From contig DATCTN010000028.1 in NCBI GenBank assembly GCA_036567965.1, positions 1-36,148 of the forward strand: DNA of 36,148 bases, given 5' to 3'. A program made the translations under genes and the position numbers. The notes beneath the pieces are model-generated. The model saw only the letters and a program-made list of their open reading frames with translations, ran no database searches and was not told where the DNA came from. The stretch's first letter is position 1; the number at the start of each line of letters is the position of its first letter. The DNA comes from Candidatus Kryptoniota bacterium. Its GTDB lineage: Bacteria; Bacteroidota; Ignavibacteria; Kryptoniales; JAKASW01. Shown piece after piece: positions 5,571-15,825 of this stretch.

Positions 5571-5738
5571 TTCCTACTTTGATTTTCGAGCGGACGTTTC
5601 AGACTGGTACACTCTCCGTTCCGCAGCGTCTGGCTGGAGATCCGGAACCGGATGCACTGGAACAGTTCGTGGTGAAGTGATTGTTGTATAACAAATGGGT
5701 GTCTGAAGAAACATTGAATAATAAAAGGGAGATTTCAT

Positions 5739-6140
5739 ATGAATGAAGATCTAGGTAAGTTAATATTACGGCTGACGGTCGGCGGACTCCTGATATTTCA
5801 TGGCATATCGAAACTGGTTCATGGAATCGCGTGGATGGCGGGTCCGCTTGGAGCGTTCCATCTTCCGTTCTTTATCGGGTACGGAGTGTACATAGGTGAA
5901 ATAGTCGCGCCTGTCATGATAATCCTCGGTTACAAAGCCCGGCTCGCCGCGCTTGTGGTCGCATTTGATCTTTTCATGGCAATCGTTCTGGTAACAAACG
6001 GAGGCATCTTTGCTGTCAGACCCGGCGGCGCATGGGGAATTGAAACGGAGGCATTTTACCTTTTGACGGCAATCGCAATCTTCCTTCTCGGATCGGGAAA
6101 GTTCAAAGTATCCAAAGTCTCCGGGAACAAATGGGATTGA
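5739..6140 (+). CDS. DoxX family membrane protein
   Basis: Protein of 133 residues with four hydrophobic segments and the DoxX/YphA-like opening LILRLTVGGLLIFHGISKL, followed by GVYIGEIVAPVMIILGY. DoxX proteins are small inner-membrane proteins of poorly defined function, some linked to thiosulfate:quinone oxidoreductase or redox stress. ATG 5739 has GGGAG at about seven-base spacing. The next gene begins 70 bp downstream, so an operon with the ABC transporter is possible but not evident. Confidence 0.9.
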   Translation: MNEDLGKLILRLTVGGLLIFHGISKLVHGIAWMAGPLGAFHLPFFIGYGVYIGEIVAPVMIILGYKARLAALVVAFDLFMAIVLVTNGGIFAVRPGGAWGIETEAFYLLTAIAIFLLGSGKFKVSKVSGNKWD

Positions 6141-6210
6141 GCGGCGAGCGAAACCATAACCTCACCGAGTACGTAAGGTACATCGTGGGCACATTAAGTC
6201 CTGAAAGGGC

Positions 6211-7143
6211 ATGAGAAACAGCTGCATGATATCAGTTCAAGGTGTCTCGAAAAAATTTCCATCAGTCATTGCGGTCGACAACGTTTCGCTCGAAATAGGA
6301 GGCGGGGAATTCTTCGGACTTCTCGGTCCGAATGGTGCCGGTAAAACAACGCTTATGAGTCTACTTACCGGTTATTTCAATCCGGATTCCGGATCGATCA
6401 TGATCGATGGCGAACATATCTCACAGGAAAGTTTGAACATTAGAAATGAAATTGGTTATGTCCCCCAGTCGCTCGCTGTGTACGATGAGCTGGGAGCGCA
6501 GGAGAACCTTGAAGCGTTCGGGAGTCTTTATCGCGTTCCCAAAAAGATCCTGAAGCAAAGAATAGTCGAACAGCTTAATGCCGTCGGGCTCTACGACAGG
6601 CGCAAGGATAAGGTGAAGACGTTTTCCGGCGGGATGAAGCGCCGACTGAATCTTATTGCCAGTCTTCTCCACGATCCTAATGTTCTCATTTGCGACGAGC
6701 CGACGGTAGGGGTAGACCCCCAGTCCAGGAATGCCATCTTCGACTATCTCGAGTCGCTCAACAGGGCTGGGAAGACTATTGTATATACCACGCACTACAT
6801 GGAGGAAGCTGAGCGGCTCTGCACTCGTGTTGCGATCATCGATCATGGCATTATAATCGCCCTCGGTACTACCGACGAACTCCTTGAGAAGCTGCCGTAT
6901 GAGGAAGCGATAAGCATATCCAAGAATCAAATGACGACGGAGAACGGCAAGATCTTTCAGGCGTTTGGGAAGATCGTCGAGGAGAACGATCACTTCGAGT
7001 TGAATCCGTCTCCTGGATTCAAATTATCGTCTTTCTTCTTGAAACTGGAAGAACACGGGATCCATTACAAATCGATCGAGCTCCACCGCCCGACGCTGGA
7101 AGCCCTCTTCCTTCAACTGACCGGGAGGAGGCTGAGAGATTGA
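6211..7143 (+). CDS. ABC transporter ATP-binding protein (ABC-2 type)
   Basis: Cytoplasmic ATPase subunit of an ABC-2 exporter, 310 residues, similar in layout to DrrA/CcmA-type proteins. Visible motifs: Walker A GPNGAGKTT (39-47), Q-loop Gln86 in YVPQSL, signature FSGGM (138-142), Walker B LICDEP (159-164) and H-loop His195 in TTHYMEE. The C-terminal 90 residues form the usual accessory domain. ATG 6211 is used; an alternative ATG at 6226 lies closer to the conserved start (ISVQGVSKKF), and neither has an ideal SD. The stop overlaps the permease start by four bases, a strong sign of coupled translation. Transported substrate unknown. Confidence 0.93.
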   Translation: MRNSCMISVQGVSKKFPSVIAVDNVSLEIGGGEFFGLLGPNGAGKTTLMSLLTGYFNPDSGSIMIDGEHISQESLNIRNEIGYVPQSLAVYDELGAQENLEAFGSLYRVPKKILKQRIVEQLNAVGLYDRRKDKVKTFSGGMKRRLNLIASLLHDPNVLICDEPTVGVDPQSRNAIFDYLESLNRAGKTIVYTTHYMEEAERLCTRVAIIDHGIIIALGTTDELLEKLPYEEAISISKNQMTTENGKIFQAFGKIVEENDHFELNPSPGFKLSSFFLKLEEHGIHYKSIELHRPTLEALFLQLTGRRLRD

Positions 7144-8453
7144 GACAGGTCCTTCAGCTTTTCAAGAATTCGTACAGGATATTTTTCAACGACAGAATAT
7201 CGGTGTTACTGACCTTCATCGTCCCCGTGGTCTTGGTGTATATATTTGGATCGATCTTCGGCGGGTCAAATGCCGGACCGCAGGGAATTCCGCTTGCGTT
7301 CCTCAACCAGAGCAAGTCGGAGGTCGGCACGCGCATAGAATCAGCGCTCGATACGATGAAGTCTTTCCGGGTGATCAAGTCATTCAAAGACGATTCCGGA
7401 ATTGTGCGGACGTTCGACACGACTTCGATAAAAGAATATGTTATGAACGGGAATGCTACCGCCGCTCTGGTGCTTCCGATAGACGCTTATTCCGATACTT
7501 CTATGGCTCTGAAAATAAAGTTCTATTACGATCCGAAGAATGAGATCGAGATCCAGACAGTACAGGGATTAATCAAGCAGGTGGTATTCAGCCAGTTTCC
7601 GTCGATTATCGCGCAGAGCGGACTCAAGCAGGCGGAACGAGCGCTCGGGACAAAGAACGGACGCGAGTTCAACAGGGGCATGGCGTCGGTCGTGAGCAAG
7701 TATTTCAAAGTCGATACAAGCGTTTTCCTGCATCCGTCAAGATGGAAGTTCTCGGGAAAGGGCGGCGATTCTTCCAACAACACCGGAAATTTTTTCAACG
7801 AGATTGTGAAAATGGATGAAGAGCAGGTCGTCGGCAAACAACTCGCAAATCCCTGGGCAACGAGGAGTGTTGGGGGATGGGCAATTACATTTCTGCTCTT
7901 CAGCCTGACAGCGGCATCTTCTTCTCTCTTCGATGAGAAGAAATCCGGGGTGATGCTCCGGCTCCTCACATCTCCAGTTTCCAGGGTTCACATCCTCTGG
8001 AGCAAGTATCTTTTCAATATGTCGCTCGGTATCCTCCAGTTGTCCGTCCTCTTCTTCTTCGGCTGGGTAATCTTCAGGATAGACATCTTCTCAAACTTCA
8101 TTAATCTTTTCCTGATAATCATCGCGGCATCGCTTGCGTGTACATCGTTCGGGATGCTTCTCGCAGCATTCTCGAAGACGCGCCAGCAGGCGAACGGGCT
8201 CGGAACTCTTCTTATTCTTAGCATGAGTGCGATCGGCGGAGCCTGGTTCCCGGTCTCCTTCATGCCGTCCGGCATCCAGTTCTTCAGCAGGCTCACACCC
8301 GTATATTGGGCGATGGATGGTTTTCTCCAGGTTCTGTGGAGAGGCGTGGGCCTCTCCGGCATCGTCGAGCACATCGTGATCCTTGTCGGCATCGGCGCGG
8401 TAGCCAGCGTTGTCAGCTTGTGGCAGTTTAAAAGAGGAGATATCTTCTCCTGA
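7140..8453 (+). CDS. ABC-2 type transporter permease
   Basis: Membrane subunit paired with the upstream ATPase, 437 residues. It has an N-terminal membrane helix (LLTFIVPVVLVYIFGSIFGG), a long extracytoplasmic domain (about residues 45-230), and then five hydrophobic segments ending near the C-terminus, the usual topology of the YhgE/DrrB-like ABC-2 family. The start is TTG 7140, preceded by GGGAGGAGG about six bases away and overlapping the ATPase stop (TTGA). The segment WAITFLLFSLTAASSSLFDE with KKSGVMLRLLTSPVSR is family-typical. Substrates of such pairs include drugs, lipids and polysaccharides; nothing here decides which. Confidence 0.92.
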   Translation: MRQVLQLFKNSYRIFFNDRISVLLTFIVPVVLVYIFGSIFGGSNAGPQGIPLAFLNQSKSEVGTRIESALDTMKSFRVIKSFKDDSGIVRTFDTTSIKEYVMNGNATAALVLPIDAYSDTSMALKIKFYYDPKNEIEIQTVQGLIKQVVFSQFPSIIAQSGLKQAERALGTKNGREFNRGMASVVSKYFKVDTSVFLHPSRWKFSGKGGDSSNNTGNFFNEIVKMDEEQVVGKQLANPWATRSVGGWAITFLLFSLTAASSSLFDEKKSGVMLRLLTSPVSRVHILWSKYLFNMSLGILQLSVLFFFGWVIFRIDIFSNFINLFLIIIAASLACTSFGMLLAAFSKTRQQANGLGTLLILSMSAIGGAWFPVSFMPSGIQFFSRLTPVYWAMDGFLQVLWRGVGLSGIVEHIVILVGIGAVASVVSLWQFKRGDIFS

Positions 8454-10248: not shown

Positions 10249-10449
10249 ATGCTTTACCTGATAGCGTTTCTTCTTCCGCCGTTGGCTGTGCTGCTGAGCG
10301 GCAAACCGATTCAAGCGCTCTTCAATATAGTTTTGTGCGTGTTTCTTTGGATTCCAGGTGTGATACACGCGCTCCTCGTCGTCCACGACCATTATGCTGA
10401 CAAACGCGCTCGGCGTGTGATTAAAGCTATCAACGCTACTAGGGTGTGA
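10249..10449 (+). CDS. YqaE/Pmp3 family small membrane protein
   Basis: A 66-residue proteolipid-like protein with two membrane helices. The first (LIAFLLPPLAVLLSGKP) is followed by a short basic/polar turn, and the second carries FNIVLCVFLWIPGVIHALLV, which matches the conserved 'WIPGxIHA' signature of the UPF0057 (Pmp3/YqaE) family. Members are membrane-potential or stress-associated. A charged C-terminal tail (DKRARRVIKAIN) follows. The SD is weak (GAG near ATG). It stands alone, upstream of the TetR control region. Confidence 0.88.
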   Translation: MLYLIAFLLPPLAVLLSGKPIQALFNIVLCVFLWIPGVIHALLVVHDHYADKRARRVIKAINATRV

Positions 10450-10603
10450 GGGCTGCACTTCTCCAATCTTCCAAAATAAACTTACTCGAGTTTCGTCTTG
10501 AGACTTGTTGGGCCTGATGGAAGCACAATTTACAGGCGCCTGAAATTGTTAATGGTTCCTTAACATGATGACTCTTGAATTGTCAGAGAAGGGTCGTTAA
10601 ATT

Positions 10604-10631
10604 GGAAACGTTCTAGACGTATATCGTTTCC
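10604..10631. promoter_or_regulatory. Operator-like dyad, copy 1 (GGAAACG-N14-CGTTTCC)
   Basis: GGAAACG (10604-10610) and CGTTTCC (10625-10631) are a perfect inverted repeat separated by 14 bases. A second copy with the same arm spacing lies 71 bp downstream at 10675-10702. The inner 14 bases of both contain ACGT at the same offset. The position upstream of a TetR regulator and an RND operon suggests autoregulation by the TetR protein; that is inference. Confidence 0.65.
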
Positions 10632-10642
10632 ATCGTAGGAAT

Positions 10643-10664
10643 CGCAGTTTATCTGCGTTTTTTT
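10643..10664 (+). terminator. Terminator-like hairpin between the two operator copies
   Basis: CGCAG (10643-10647) and CTGCG (10653-10657) form a 5-bp stem with a TTTAT loop, followed directly by seven T. It resembles a small intrinsic terminator and sits between the two operator-like dyads, upstream of the TetR start. It may end an upstream or leader transcript or attenuate the TetR mRNA. Confidence 0.5.
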
Positions 10665-10674
10665 AGGTTATCGC

Positions 10675-10702
10675 GGAAACGATGTAAACGTCATTCGTTT
10701 CA
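10675..10702. promoter_or_regulatory. Operator-like dyad, copy 2 (GGAAACG-N14-CGTTTCA)
   Basis: GGAAACG (10675-10681) and CGTTTCA (10696-10702) repeat the architecture of copy 1, with one mismatch at the last base. It ends about 21 bp before the TetR start codon and nearly abuts its SD (GGAGAAAGG), so bound protein would overlap the promoter or transcription start region. Confidence 0.65.
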
Positions 10703-10723
10703 CATGTGGAGAAAGGCCCTAGA

Positions 10724-11374
10724 ATGTCGTCAGACGAGAAGGAAAAAAGGGAGAGAATTCTGGCCGGAGCGGAGGGGATGTTCCTCGAACACGGTTATGC
10801 CAAAGTCACGATGGAGGAAATAGCCTCCAGTCTCGGGATCAGCAAGAAAACCCTCTACAAATTTTTTCCCAACAAGGAGAAGCTGGTTCGAGATCTGATC
10901 TCCGATCGTCAGTGCGAGTTCATGAATCACATCGATGGCATATGGCGACGAGATGATCTCGATTTTATCGGCAAGTTCAGGATAACCCTCGATTACTTTG
11001 GCGAACGGTCTTCTCGAGTCAACCGGTTTCATGATCTGCAGAAACTAGTCCCTGATGTTTGGAAGGATATACACTCTTTCAAGAAAGAAAAGGGCCTTGA
11101 GAAGATCAAACAAGTTCTTAACGACGGTTTCGAAACGGGAATCTTGAGGAAAGACATTAACCGCGACGTTATCGTCTTACTCTACACGAATGCAGTCGAG
11201 TCGATTATCACGCCGGATGTTCTCGCTGAACTACCTTTCAGCGGTCCGCAAGTGTTCGAAGCGATTTCAAAGATCATATTCGAGGGAATCCTGACGGAAG
11301 ACGGCAGAAAGCGGTACTGCTCATATTCGTTGCCGCAGGATAAGAAGATTGATAAAAGTGTCTTGCAAGACTGA
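10724..11374 (+). CDS. TetR/AcrR family transcriptional regulator
   Basis: About 216 residues. The N-terminal helix-turn-helix is clear: RERILAGAEGMFLEHGYAKV, then TMEEIASSLGISKKTLYKFF (about residues 29-48), the standard TetR pattern. The C-terminal ligand-binding/dimerisation domain is helical and variable, as usual. A GTG at 10706 is in frame, but GGAGAAAGG lies seven bases before ATG 10724, so 10724 is the likely start. The gene stands 212 bp upstream of an RND adaptor/pump pair, the usual arrangement for local repressors of efflux operons. Two dyad operators precede it, suggesting autorepression. Confidence 0.92.
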   Translation: MSSDEKEKRERILAGAEGMFLEHGYAKVTMEEIASSLGISKKTLYKFFPNKEKLVRDLISDRQCEFMNHIDGIWRRDDLDFIGKFRITLDYFGERSSRVNRFHDLQKLVPDVWKDIHSFKKEKGLEKIKQVLNDGFETGILRKDINRDVIVLLYTNAVESIITPDVLAELPFSGPQVFEAISKIIFEGILTEDGRKRYCSYSLPQDKKIDKSVLQD

Positions 11375-11586: not shown

Positions 11587-12636
11587 ATGAAAAAAATTAG
11601 GATCTATTCGGTTGCAATCGTCGTGGTGGCGCTCATTATTGCCATACTGATGAGGAACCGATCTCAAATAAAAGCTGAAACGAAGAGACAAACCGTTGAT
11701 TCGTATCCCGTCAGTGTAGCTACCGTTGTGCAACGAGGACTTTCAGACAATATCGATCTCGTCGGGACAATAGACGCCAATAACGACGTGGCTATTGTAT
11801 CAGAGGCGCAGGGGAAGGTGACGAAAGTGCTGGCGCAAGTCGGAGATTTCAAGTCGGCCGGCTCGGTTCTGATCCAGATCGACGACGAGCTGGCACTTGC
11901 TGCAATGAACACGGCAAAAGTCAATCTTGATAAGGCAACCAAAGATTACGAACGGTTCCAGGAATTGTATAAAGAGAAAGCCGTGACAGATTCCCAGCTT
12001 GAAGGCGCTAATCTTGCTTACGAGTCGGCGAAGGATCAGTTTGTCATCGCCCGCCGTCAGTATGACGACACGAAAGTATCGACACCCATAGCGGGCATCA
12101 TGACTTCGCGGACTGTTGATGTTGGCAATTATGTCAACAGCAAAACGGTAGTCGCGGACGTCGTCGACATCTCCCGGCTTAAGATCACAGTCAACGTCGA
12201 CGAGCATGATGTGTTCAACTTGAGAACAGGCGAGCCGGCAGAAATTTCGACGGGGGTTTATCCCGGAAGTGAGTTTCATGGGATCATTAAGACTATCAGC
12301 GCTAAAGGAGATGCGTCGCATACATATCCGGTGGAAGTGGACTTTTCGAACAGCTCCGAACATCCCCTCAAGGCAGGAATGTTTGCGCATGTGCTCCTCA
12401 CACCCCATTCAGATGGGACCGCGCTCGTGATACCGAGACAAGCTCTGGTAGGAAGTGTGGAGCAGCCCCAGGTTTTTGCCGTCGAGAATGGAATTGCCAG
12501 ACTTAGAAATGTTGTCATCGGCTCCTCTTATGATAATTACCTGGAAGTGATAGACGGACTTCACAAGGGTGAAACGGTAGTTACTAACGGACAGAACAAT
12601 CTTCAGGACGGGAACAAAGTTACCATCGCCGGGTAA
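11587..12636 (+). CDS. RND efflux periplasmic adaptor (membrane fusion protein)
   Basis: Adaptor of 349 residues that would bridge the inner-membrane RND pump to an outer-membrane channel. An N-terminal hydrophobic anchor (VAIVVVALIIAILM) is followed by the split biotinyl-lipoyl domain (start: VSEAQGKVTKVLAQVGD; return: VSTPIAGIMTSRTVDVGNYV), an intervening alpha-helical hairpin (KATKDYERFQELYKEKAV onwards), a beta-barrel domain (VNVDEHDVFNLRTGEPAEI) and a C-terminal membrane-proximal domain ending in VVTNGQNNLQDGNKV. ATG 11587 is preceded by AGGGTGAG. It is 48 bp upstream of the pump gene, consistent with one operon. Confidence 0.93.
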   Translation: MKKIRIYSVAIVVVALIIAILMRNRSQIKAETKRQTVDSYPVSVATVVQRGLSDNIDLVGTIDANNDVAIVSEAQGKVTKVLAQVGDFKSAGSVLIQIDDELALAAMNTAKVNLDKATKDYERFQELYKEKAVTDSQLEGANLAYESAKDQFVIARRQYDDTKVSTPIAGIMTSRTVDVGNYVNSKTVVADVVDISRLKITVNVDEHDVFNLRTGEPAEISTGVYPGSEFHGIIKTISAKGDASHTYPVEVDFSNSSEHPLKAGMFAHVLLTPHSDGTALVIPRQALVGSVEQPQVFAVENGIARLRNVVIGSSYDNYLEVIDGLHKGETVVTNGQNNLQDGNKVTIAG

Positions 12637-12684: not shown

Positions 12685-15600
12685 ATGACTGTAACAGAGC
12701 TAGCTATAAAAAGACCGACACTTGTCGTGGTGGTATTCGGGGCATTGGCACTCATCGGCTTGTTCAGCCTTTCGAGGCTTAACTATGAACTGCTTCCGAA
12801 GATTACGCCACCAGTTGTAACGATTTCTACAATTTATCCGGGCGCTTCACCGAATGAAGTAGAGAATTCGGTGACCAAACCTATCGAGGATGTTGTCTCA
12901 TCTCTCGATCAAATAGACAACATAACATCTCGATCGAACGAAGGCGTGTCATTCGTGATGATTCAGTTCCTGCAGACTGCGGACGTGAACACTCAGATGC
13001 AAAGCGCGCAGCAGAAGATCGATCAGATCGTCGGCACGCTCCCGGCAGGCGTAAAGACGCCATCGATATCGAAATTCGAGCTTGATGCGATTCCCGTCCT
13101 CAGGATGGGCGTCACAAGCAACATGCCATCGACCGAATTTTACCAGTTCATTTTGGACAGAATCCAGCCGAGACTCGCTGAAGTCCCGGGAGTAGGACAG
13201 ATTACGCTTGTCGGCGGCGACGAAAGAGAAATCCGGGTCAACTTGAACGCAGACAGGCTCAAGTCGTACCATCTTTCGGTACTCCAGGTTTTGAATTCGA
13301 TAAGGAATTCCGACATAGACTTCCCAACTGGAAAACTGGAAAACAGCACCAATCAATTAGTTGTTCGATTGGCCGGAAAGTTCAGTTCTGTTGACGCGAT
13401 CAGGAATCTTATCGTCACCAAATCGCCGGGCGGCGGAGATGTAAAGCTTTCGGATGTCGCAGACGTGGATGACGGTCACAAAGAGTACACGACCATTAAC
13501 CGTATCAACGGAGTGACGTCGGTCGGAATACTGGTTCAGAAGCAAACGGACGCAAACGCGGTGGATGTGAGCCGCCTGGTTCGGACCGAGCTTGCGAGTA
13601 TCGAAAAGGATTACCAAGACAAGAATATTAAGTTCAATATTTCCCAGGACGCTTCTCAATTCACCATAGATGCCGCGAACGGTGTGAAGTTCGATCTAGC
13701 CCTTGCCGTTGTGCTCGTCGCTATCGTCATGCTGCTTTTTCTACACAGCATGAGAAATTCTTTTATAGTAATGCTTGCCATTCCCGCTTCAATACTCTCG
13801 ACATTTGTAGTAATGTACGCGTTCGGCTACACGCTAAATCTGATGACGCTGCTCGGACTCTCGCTCGTTGTGGGAATACTTGTCGACGATTCAATAGTCG
13901 TCATCGAGAACATCCATCATCACCTTGAGAAAGGCGAACCACCTAGAGATGCAGCGATAAAAGGGAGAAACGAAATTGGATTTGCAGCGCTCTCGATCAC
14001 GATGGTTGATGTTGTAATCTATGTGCCGCTTGCTTTGACGGGTGGTCTGATCGGAAACATCATAAGAGAATTCTCCGTTGTGGTGGTCATATCAACTCTT
14101 CTGAGCTTATTTGTCTCGTTCACTGTCACACCTCTCCTCGCATCGCGGATAAGCAAACTCGAAAGGATGACGGACGGGACTTTCATCGGACGCTTCGCGC
14201 TCCAGTTCGAGAAATACTTTCACAAGCTGATCGCGAACTACCTGGGAATATTGAAATGGAGTCTCAGTAACAGGTGGAAAGTAGTGACAATTTCGGCTGT
14301 CCTCTTTGTCGCTTCTCTTTCACTCGCGCCTCTCGGTTTCATTGGGGCGGAATTCATCACACAGTCGGACCGCGGGGAGTTCGCCGTCACGCTCGAAACG
14401 CCTTCCAATTACTCGCTCGAGAACACAAACTTCGTAACTCAAAAGGTTGAACAGTACATCAGCAGTCTGCCTGAAGTGAAGAGCGATTTCGTCGAGGTCG
14501 GCGCTTCAAATGAGGGCCTCATCGGCCAGACGTCGAACAACAGTTCCGAGCTGGACGTTGAACTGGTGCCGAAGGAAGAGCGCTCCAAATCAACAGACGA
14601 AGTCGGTCAGGAGATAAAAGATTTCGGTATGATGATGCCGGGGGTGAAGGTTCGGGTTAATCCGATCGGCCTCTTCGGAACGGCAAATCAAACTCCGATT
14701 CAGCTGATTGTAAACGGTCCCGACAGAAACGACGTGCTTAAGTCCGCCGATATCGTGGAGAGGGTCGTGAGGACGATACCTGGAACTGCCGACGTCCGGC
14801 TTTCGACCGAAGCGGCAAATCCGGAAATGAAGGTGGACATCGACAGGCAGAAACTTGCAGACTTCGGGTTGTCGATCGCCGATGTGGGTGCCGCGCTGCA
14901 GGTTGCAATGCAGGGCAATGACGACACGAAGTACAGGGAAGGAAACGACGACTACGACATACTCGTGTCGCTCGACAAATTCGATAAATCGAAAATCTCA
15001 GATTTGAAACAGATGACTTTCGTGAACGACAAAGGTCAATCCGTCGAGCTGCAGGAGTTTGCCAATGTGTACCAGGAAACCGGACCGACGGCACTCCAGA
15101 GGTTCAACAGGATAAACGCGGTAACAGTCTACTCGCAAGTCATCGGTCGTCCAACCGGAAGCGTCGGGGAAGACATTAAGAACGCGATGGCGAAGGAAAA
15201 ACTTCCTCCGGGCGTCGGAGTCGTTTATTGGGGAGATTTGAAAAATCAGGCCGACGCGTTCGGCAGCCTCGGACTTGCTCTTATCGCCGCAATAATTTTC
15301 GTGTACCTTGTTATGGTTGCGCTTTATGACTCCTACATCGATCCGTTCATCATTCTTTTTTCAATTCCTGTTGCGATGGTCGGCGCATTTCTCGCTCTAG
15401 CCCTAACGATGAAATCGCTAAACATATTCACGATACTTGGAATAATCATGCTTGTCGGGCTGGTCGGCAAGAACGCGATCCTGCTCGTCGATAGGACCAA
15501 CCAGAAGAAAAGGGAGGACGGACTCACGACTTTTGAAGCTTTGCTCGAGGCGGGAGAAAGCAGGATCAGGCCCATCTTAATGACAACGACTGCGATGGTC

Positions 15601-15825
15601 ATCGGTATGCTGCCTCTTGCGCTCTCGACAGATTCCGGATCCGAATGGAAATCAGGTCTCGCGTGGGGAATCATAGGCGGATTGATCAGCTCCATGTTCC
15701 TGACGCTCATCCTAGTTCCAGTTGTTTACGTGCTGGTCGAGAAGGTTCAATTGAGAGTGAGAGGTATTATTCGCAAGAGAGCAAAGGAACCTTTACAGGA
15801 GCTTCATCCCGATCTGGTGAAGTAG
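12685..15825 (+). CDS. RND family efflux pump, HAE1/AcrB-like permease
   Basis: Proton-driven inner-membrane transporter of 1046 residues, the normal length for the family. The N-terminus (ELAIKRPTLVVVVFGALALI) is the first membrane helix. The TM4 proton-relay aspartates are Asp401 and Asp402 in VVGILVDDSIVVIEN. TM10-TM12 follow in the second half, including FTILGIIMLVGLVGKNAILL with the relay Lys. Two large periplasmic loops (about 40-330 and 560-860) form the porter and docking domains. The pump belongs to the drug-type branch rather than the heavy-metal branch, judged by the DD pair. No TolC-like outer-membrane factor follows; the next gene encodes a VOC protein. Substrate unknown. Confidence 0.95.
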   Translation: MTVTELAIKRPTLVVVVFGALALIGLFSLSRLNYELLPKITPPVVTISTIYPGASPNEVENSVTKPIEDVVSSLDQIDNITSRSNEGVSFVMIQFLQTADVNTQMQSAQQKIDQIVGTLPAGVKTPSISKFELDAIPVLRMGVTSNMPSTEFYQFILDRIQPRLAEVPGVGQITLVGGDEREIRVNLNADRLKSYHLSVLQVLNSIRNSDIDFPTGKLENSTNQLVVRLAGKFSSVDAIRNLIVTKSPGGGDVKLSDVADVDDGHKEYTTINRINGVTSVGILVQKQTDANAVDVSRLVRTELASIEKDYQDKNIKFNISQDASQFTIDAANGVKFDLALAVVLVAIVMLLFLHSMRNSFIVMLAIPASILSTFVVMYAFGYTLNLMTLLGLSLVVGILVDDSIVVIENIHHHLEKGEPPRDAAIKGRNEIGFAALSITMVDVVIYVPLALTGGLIGNIIREFSVVVVISTLLSLFVSFTVTPLLASRISKLERMTDGTFIGRFALQFEKYFHKLIANYLGILKWSLSNRWKVVTISAVLFVASLSLAPLGFIGAEFITQSDRGEFAVTLETPSNYSLENTNFVTQKVEQYISSLPEVKSDFVEVGASNEGLIGQTSNNSSELDVELVPKEERSKSTDEVGQEIKDFGMMMPGVKVRVNPIGLFGTANQTPIQLIVNGPDRNDVLKSADIVERVVRTIPGTADVRLSTEAANPEMKVDIDRQKLADFGLSIADVGAALQVAMQGNDDTKYREGNDDYDILVSLDKFDKSKISDLKQMTFVNDKGQSVELQEFANVYQETGPTALQRFNRINAVTVYSQVIGRPTGSVGEDIKNAMAKEKLPPGVGVVYWGDLKNQADAFGSLGLALIAAIIFVYLVMVALYDSYIDPFIILFSIPVAMVGAFLALALTMKSLNIFTILGIIMLVGLVGKNAILLVDRTNQKKREDGLTTFEALLEAGESRIRPILMTTTAMVIGMLPLALSTDSGSEWKSGLAWGIIGGLISSMFLTLILVPVVYVLVEKVQLRVRGIIRKRAKEPLQELHPDLVK

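Follow-up and report, generated by a model that had tools for sequence, protein, structure and literature searches.

Why would a drug-efflux operon carry two copies of what is probably its repressor's DNA-binding site in the leader, with a small transcription stop signal between them? To answer this question, we examined a 36,148-nucleotide stretch of DNA from a Candidatus Kryptoniota bacterium (assembly GCA_036567965.1, contig DATCTN010000028.1, forward strand; hereafter the window), in which two 28-bp dyads precede a TetR-RND locus. The original prediction, made from the sequence alone, held that twin dyads of the form GGAAACG-N14-CGTTTC(C/A) flank a mini-terminator, that the layout suggests cooperative binding or looping by the TetR protein combined with termination in the leader, and that such a pair with an intervening terminator is unusual, since efflux repressors usually have one operator.

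Results

Twin dyads and a hairpin precede a tetR-MFP-RND operon

The predicted arrangement is correct to the base. The first dyad, O1 (GGAAACGTTCTAGACGTATATCGTTTCC), lies at 10604-10631 and the second, O2 (GGAAACGATGTAAACGTCATTCGTTTCA), at 10675-10702, 71 bp apart start to start, with ACGT at positions 14-17 of both. Between them is a GC-rich hairpin with a 5-bp stem and 5-nt loop, CGCAG-TTTAT-CTGCG (10643-10657; about -5.9 kcal/mol), directly followed by seven T (10658-10664) that begin exactly 17 nt before O2. A ribosome-binding site, GGAGAAAGG (10708-10716), leads into a gene for a TetR-family regulator (10724-11374; Pfam TetR_N, PF00440, E = 2.3e-15, above the gathering score), which is the protein likely to bind O1 and O2. 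This gene is followed on the same (+) strand by an RND periplasmic adaptor (MFP; 11587-12636; TIGR01730, above cut-off) and an RND permease of the AcrB/AcrD/AcrF family (12685-15825; PF00873, E = 2.5e-260). Upstream lies a co-oriented 66-aa ORF (10249-10449) encoding a membrane protein that by eye, without a database search, looks like the Pmp3/YqaE family, and similar coding sequence seems to lie upstream in several same-genus loci. An ABC exporter pair (DrrA-like ATPase and ABC-2 permease; 6211-8453) is found about 2 kb upstream on the same strand, with no operator of this type in front of it.

The dyads are unique in the genome and conserved with the regulator

Chance recurrence elsewhere in the genome and absence from orthologous loci had been named at the outset as outcomes that would count against the prediction, and neither was observed for exact matches. 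The exact pattern GGAAACG-N14-CGTTTC occurs only at these two places in the 4,145,171-bp genome, and a reversed-pattern control gives 0. When two mismatches are allowed the pattern is common by chance (161 strand hits versus 93 in the control) and therefore uninformative, such that rejection of chance palindromes rests on exact matches and conservation; other operators of the same TetR were sought by pattern only. Ten of 13 genomes of the genus, including that of the window, hold the TetR orthologue (54-100% identity) and all ten have the operator pair directly upstream of it, with MFP and RND genes following in each case, whereas the three genomes that lack the orthologue have no exact match.

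We next searched a profile of 20 orthologues against 391 genomes of the class and read the upstream DNA of 152 related TetR loci. Ninety-two loci (three duplicate records left out) have two operators 61-113 bp apart and 51 have one clear operator; contrary to the original prediction, twin operators are common in this group. The operator consensus is GGAAAC-N5-AAAC-N7-GTTTCC, that is, a 28-bp outer dyad plus a third, inner half-site that is almost always in the direction of the gene. ACGT itself is not the conserved feature; the conserved inner element is AAAC at positions 12-15 on the coding strand, with AC at 14-15 in 192 sites and GT in 4 (a count that used the outer bases only). The inner AAAC and right GTTT form a 15-bp inverted repeat of the usual TetR size, and that the whole site is bound by two dimers is an inference from size and symmetry. 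A paralogous TetR gene in the same genome as the window (contig C21, 221080-221728) has a single operator of the same type (GGAAACTCAAAACACTAAATTAGTTTC) directly upstream; the operator class is shared by a wider TetR subfamily and differs at position 7. The operator GGAAAC-N6-AAC-N7-GTTTCC also occurs in other classes of the phylum, mostly in the families we label f36 and f41 (e.g., genome G472, contig C31, position 20484, and genome G555, contig C14, position 70400), so the site may be older than the class, although the genes behind these sites were not read. In two of the related loci (L067 and L069, about 5600-6990), about 1.4 kb, room for another gene (perhaps the outer-membrane channel, not tested), lies between tetR and the MFP gene; the window has no such insert.

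A conserved promoter abuts O1 and operator distances are phased

Alignment of 70 nonredundant loci on O1 reveals TTGACA at -29 to -24, a 17-bp spacer, and TATATT ending on the base before O1 (T/A/T..T/T conserved at -6 to -1). In the window these elements are TTGAAT (10575-10580) and TAAATT (10598-10603), which match only 8 of 12 consensus bases and were missed by a sigma-70 scan. The transcription start is inferred to lie at about 10610, inside O1; O1 would then cover about -6 to +22, O2 would lie inside the transcribed region about 65 bp after the start, and everything from the terminator on would be in the leader.

Operator distances cluster at 65-67, 71-74, 82-85, and 91-94 bp, consistent with whole helical turns. 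With one value per genus (36 genera), the vector strength at 10.5 bp is 0.55, and none of 20,000 sets jittered by 6 bp reaches this value; relatedness between genera is not removed by this test. The genus of the window contains both the 71-73 and the 82-84 class and nothing between.

The terminator is measured off from the second operator

The telling feature, which the original prediction missed, is the fixed spacing from U-tract to O2. A T-run of five or more lies between O1 and O2 in 42 of the 70 nonredundant loci, and 31 of these start 15-19 nt before O2, versus a mean of 4.9 (maximum 14 in 10,000) on random placement. A stem-loop ends at the T-run in 32 of 38 cases within 13-19 nt, compared with 0.8 (maximum 3) in shuffles; stem sequences differ widely with compensatory changes, and all four Watson-Crick pairs occur at the first three stem positions. 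When the hairpin is required, all 44 terminators in twin-operator loci begin their U-tract 13-17 nt before O2 (30 at exactly 17) and none lies after O2; several of the 13-16 values arise where A-T pairs of the stem run into the T-tract. None of the 51 lone-operator loci has a terminator after its operator, and the four that have one within 30 nt before it are at 17, 17, 17, and 18 nt. In one lone-operator locus (L025; genome G021, contig C8), a long inverted repeat (CTTACCTTTCCAAGGT...ACCTTGGAAAGGTAAG) without a U-tract and of unknown function lies between operator and tetR. A scan of whole genomes for T6-N(0-30)-operator, which ignores TetR, again peaks at 16-17 nt (by our count 27 of 48 sites; reversed controls, 2 hits in all). 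Bases -8 to -1 before O2 carry little information, so the spacing is kept and not the sequence. In contrast, the O1-to-U-tract distance varies (mostly 23-29, 36-40, and 46-52 nt), and a terminator anchored to O1 or to the gene start was therefore rejected. About half of the twin-operator loci lack a terminator that our rules recognize, so this module is not essential to the regulator and is an option on a more widespread twin-operator plan. Terminators with this spacing occur in at least five families (f1, f4, f17, f18, and f22), with lone-operator cases also in f11 and f28; shared ancestry inflates these statistics, although several families and unrelated hairpins are involved.

The spacing can be compared with the size of a polymerase running into a bound protein. 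A polymerase stopped by EcoRI E111Q has its RNA end 14 nt upstream of the site (PMC5499547); by the same measure, protein bound from the first base of O2 would stop RNA synthesis at the fourth U, and protein bound three bases further in at the seventh. The terminator is thus placed where a polymerase colliding with TetR on O2 would pause.

Discussion

The interpretation first offered, cooperative or looped TetR binding plus termination in the leader, gains strong support from these comparisons, namely conserved twin operators, the phasing of their distance, and a conserved terminator between them. We favor, with a probability of about 0.6, a two-stage autoregulatory switch of the tetR-MFP-RND operon. 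In this view, TetR on O1 blocks initiation or escape, and a polymerase that does leave meets TetR on O2 about 60 bp later, where its active site would be in the U-tract of a short, leaky intrinsic terminator when its front collides with the bound repressor, so that the stalled complex is released as an RNA of about 50-55 nt. Inducer would remove TetR from both sites, and polymerase would pass the weak terminator without the added stall to make tetR and the pump. Because O1 and O2 lie on the same face of the helix, TetR molecules on the two sites may touch or loop and strengthen both blocks; looped repressors are stronger roadblocks than single ones (PMC5477534). What the analysis itself establishes is the anatomy, i.e., the sequences, their conservation, the phasing, the spacing, and the hairpin covariation, whereas TetR binding, stalling, termination, and looping are inferred. 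Operator binding and ligand release, arrest of polymerase, and looping or cooperativity were not measured, and no transcript or expression data exist. Many DNA-binding proteins are poor roadblocks (PMC10310618), and the sign of the effect is not settled, since a block ahead might delay RNA release if release needs forward translocation (discussed in PMC3913778). The broader reading, a class-wide device in which a repressor bound to double-stranded DNA sets the efficiency of an intrinsic terminator 17 nt upstream, and thus an attenuator gated by a DNA operator and not by RNA structure, translation, or an RNA-binding protein, is in our judgment as likely as not.

Of the alternatives, additive leak control survives best but is unlikely. 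Here, the terminator is a constitutive partial terminator and O2 an independent roadblock or cooperative partner of O1, both lowering basal expression without TetR altering termination efficiency. The short stems and modest folding energies (about -3 to -10 kcal/mol), as well as the many loci that keep phased operators without any terminator, are consistent with this model, but it does not explain why every terminator sits 13-17 nt before O2 rather than anywhere in the spacer, nor why the four lone-operator cases repeat 17-18 nt. Less likely still is a poised polymerase, in which TetR on O2 holds the enzyme in the U-tract and, by blocking forward translocation, delays RNA release, giving fast induction or protecting the complex. 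The collision geometry is the same and forward translocation is one accepted pathway of release (PMC3913778); however, a hairpin and U-tract would be needless for a plain stall, and release of TetR would then favor termination at the moment of induction. It is very unlikely that the terminator belongs to an upstream transcription unit or merely insulates a tetR gene with its own promoter; although the locus follows a co-oriented small gene, the only conserved promoter lies upstream of the terminator, no conserved promoter-like sequence is seen between terminator and O2, and an insulator would not be anchored to O2. An RNA attenuator or riboswitch, with the hairpin controlled by a ligand or leader peptide and the dyads acting as RNA, is equally improbable, since, although the dyads can fold in RNA and folding of the leader has z = -2.3, there is no Rfam match, no start codon between the predicted +1 and the hairpin, an O1-hairpin interval of variable length with no alternative pairing evident (an antiterminator was looked for only by a single-sequence fold and by eye), and the operator also occurs alone next to TetR genes without a terminator.

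Repressors and attenuators are usually treated as separate layers, and here they look fused, with the stop signal set at a fixed distance from the operator that matches the size of a polymerase running into a bound protein. If true, this arrangement gives a natural test of whether a downstream protein block helps or hinders intrinsic termination, a simple rule for finding such switches in genomes, and a compact low-leak design for reporters. Our literature searches, which did not extend to most subscription journals, returned no description of this operator or of an operator-positioned intrinsic terminator. A 2023 review of roadblocks (PMC10310618) lists LacI, PurR, GalR, ArsR, CcpA, CodY, and others but does not mention TetR, and we found in it no coupled intrinsic terminator.

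The closest described case is YtgR-dependent trans-attenuation at trpRBA of Chlamydia trachomatis (PMC6504234), where a DNA-bound repressor downstream of the promoter shortens transcripts at its operator and its release gives read-through. That regulator is iron-dependent, and its authors suggest that the mechanism may not depend on specific RNA structure, whereas here an intrinsic terminator at fixed distance is part of the design. LacI at O3 in lacI autoregulation (PMC3711431), and LacI roadblocking in general (PMC4132739), likewise involves a repressor with several operators that blocks elongating polymerase on its own gene, with looping, but without an intrinsic terminator, with removal of stalled polymerase in E. 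coli depending largely on Mfd, and with a different protein family. TetR efflux repressors of the QacR, TtgR, SmeT, and MtrR type are encoded next to a pump operon and have an operator of about 28 bp at the transcription start; in the present locus two phased operators and a terminator lie between promoter and gene, and sequence similarity is mostly in the DNA-binding domain. Finally, the TRAP attenuator of the B. subtilis trp operon (PMC3913778) shares protein-assisted termination at a weak leader terminator, but TRAP binds the nascent RNA, whereas the binding site proposed here is double-stranded DNA downstream of the terminator.
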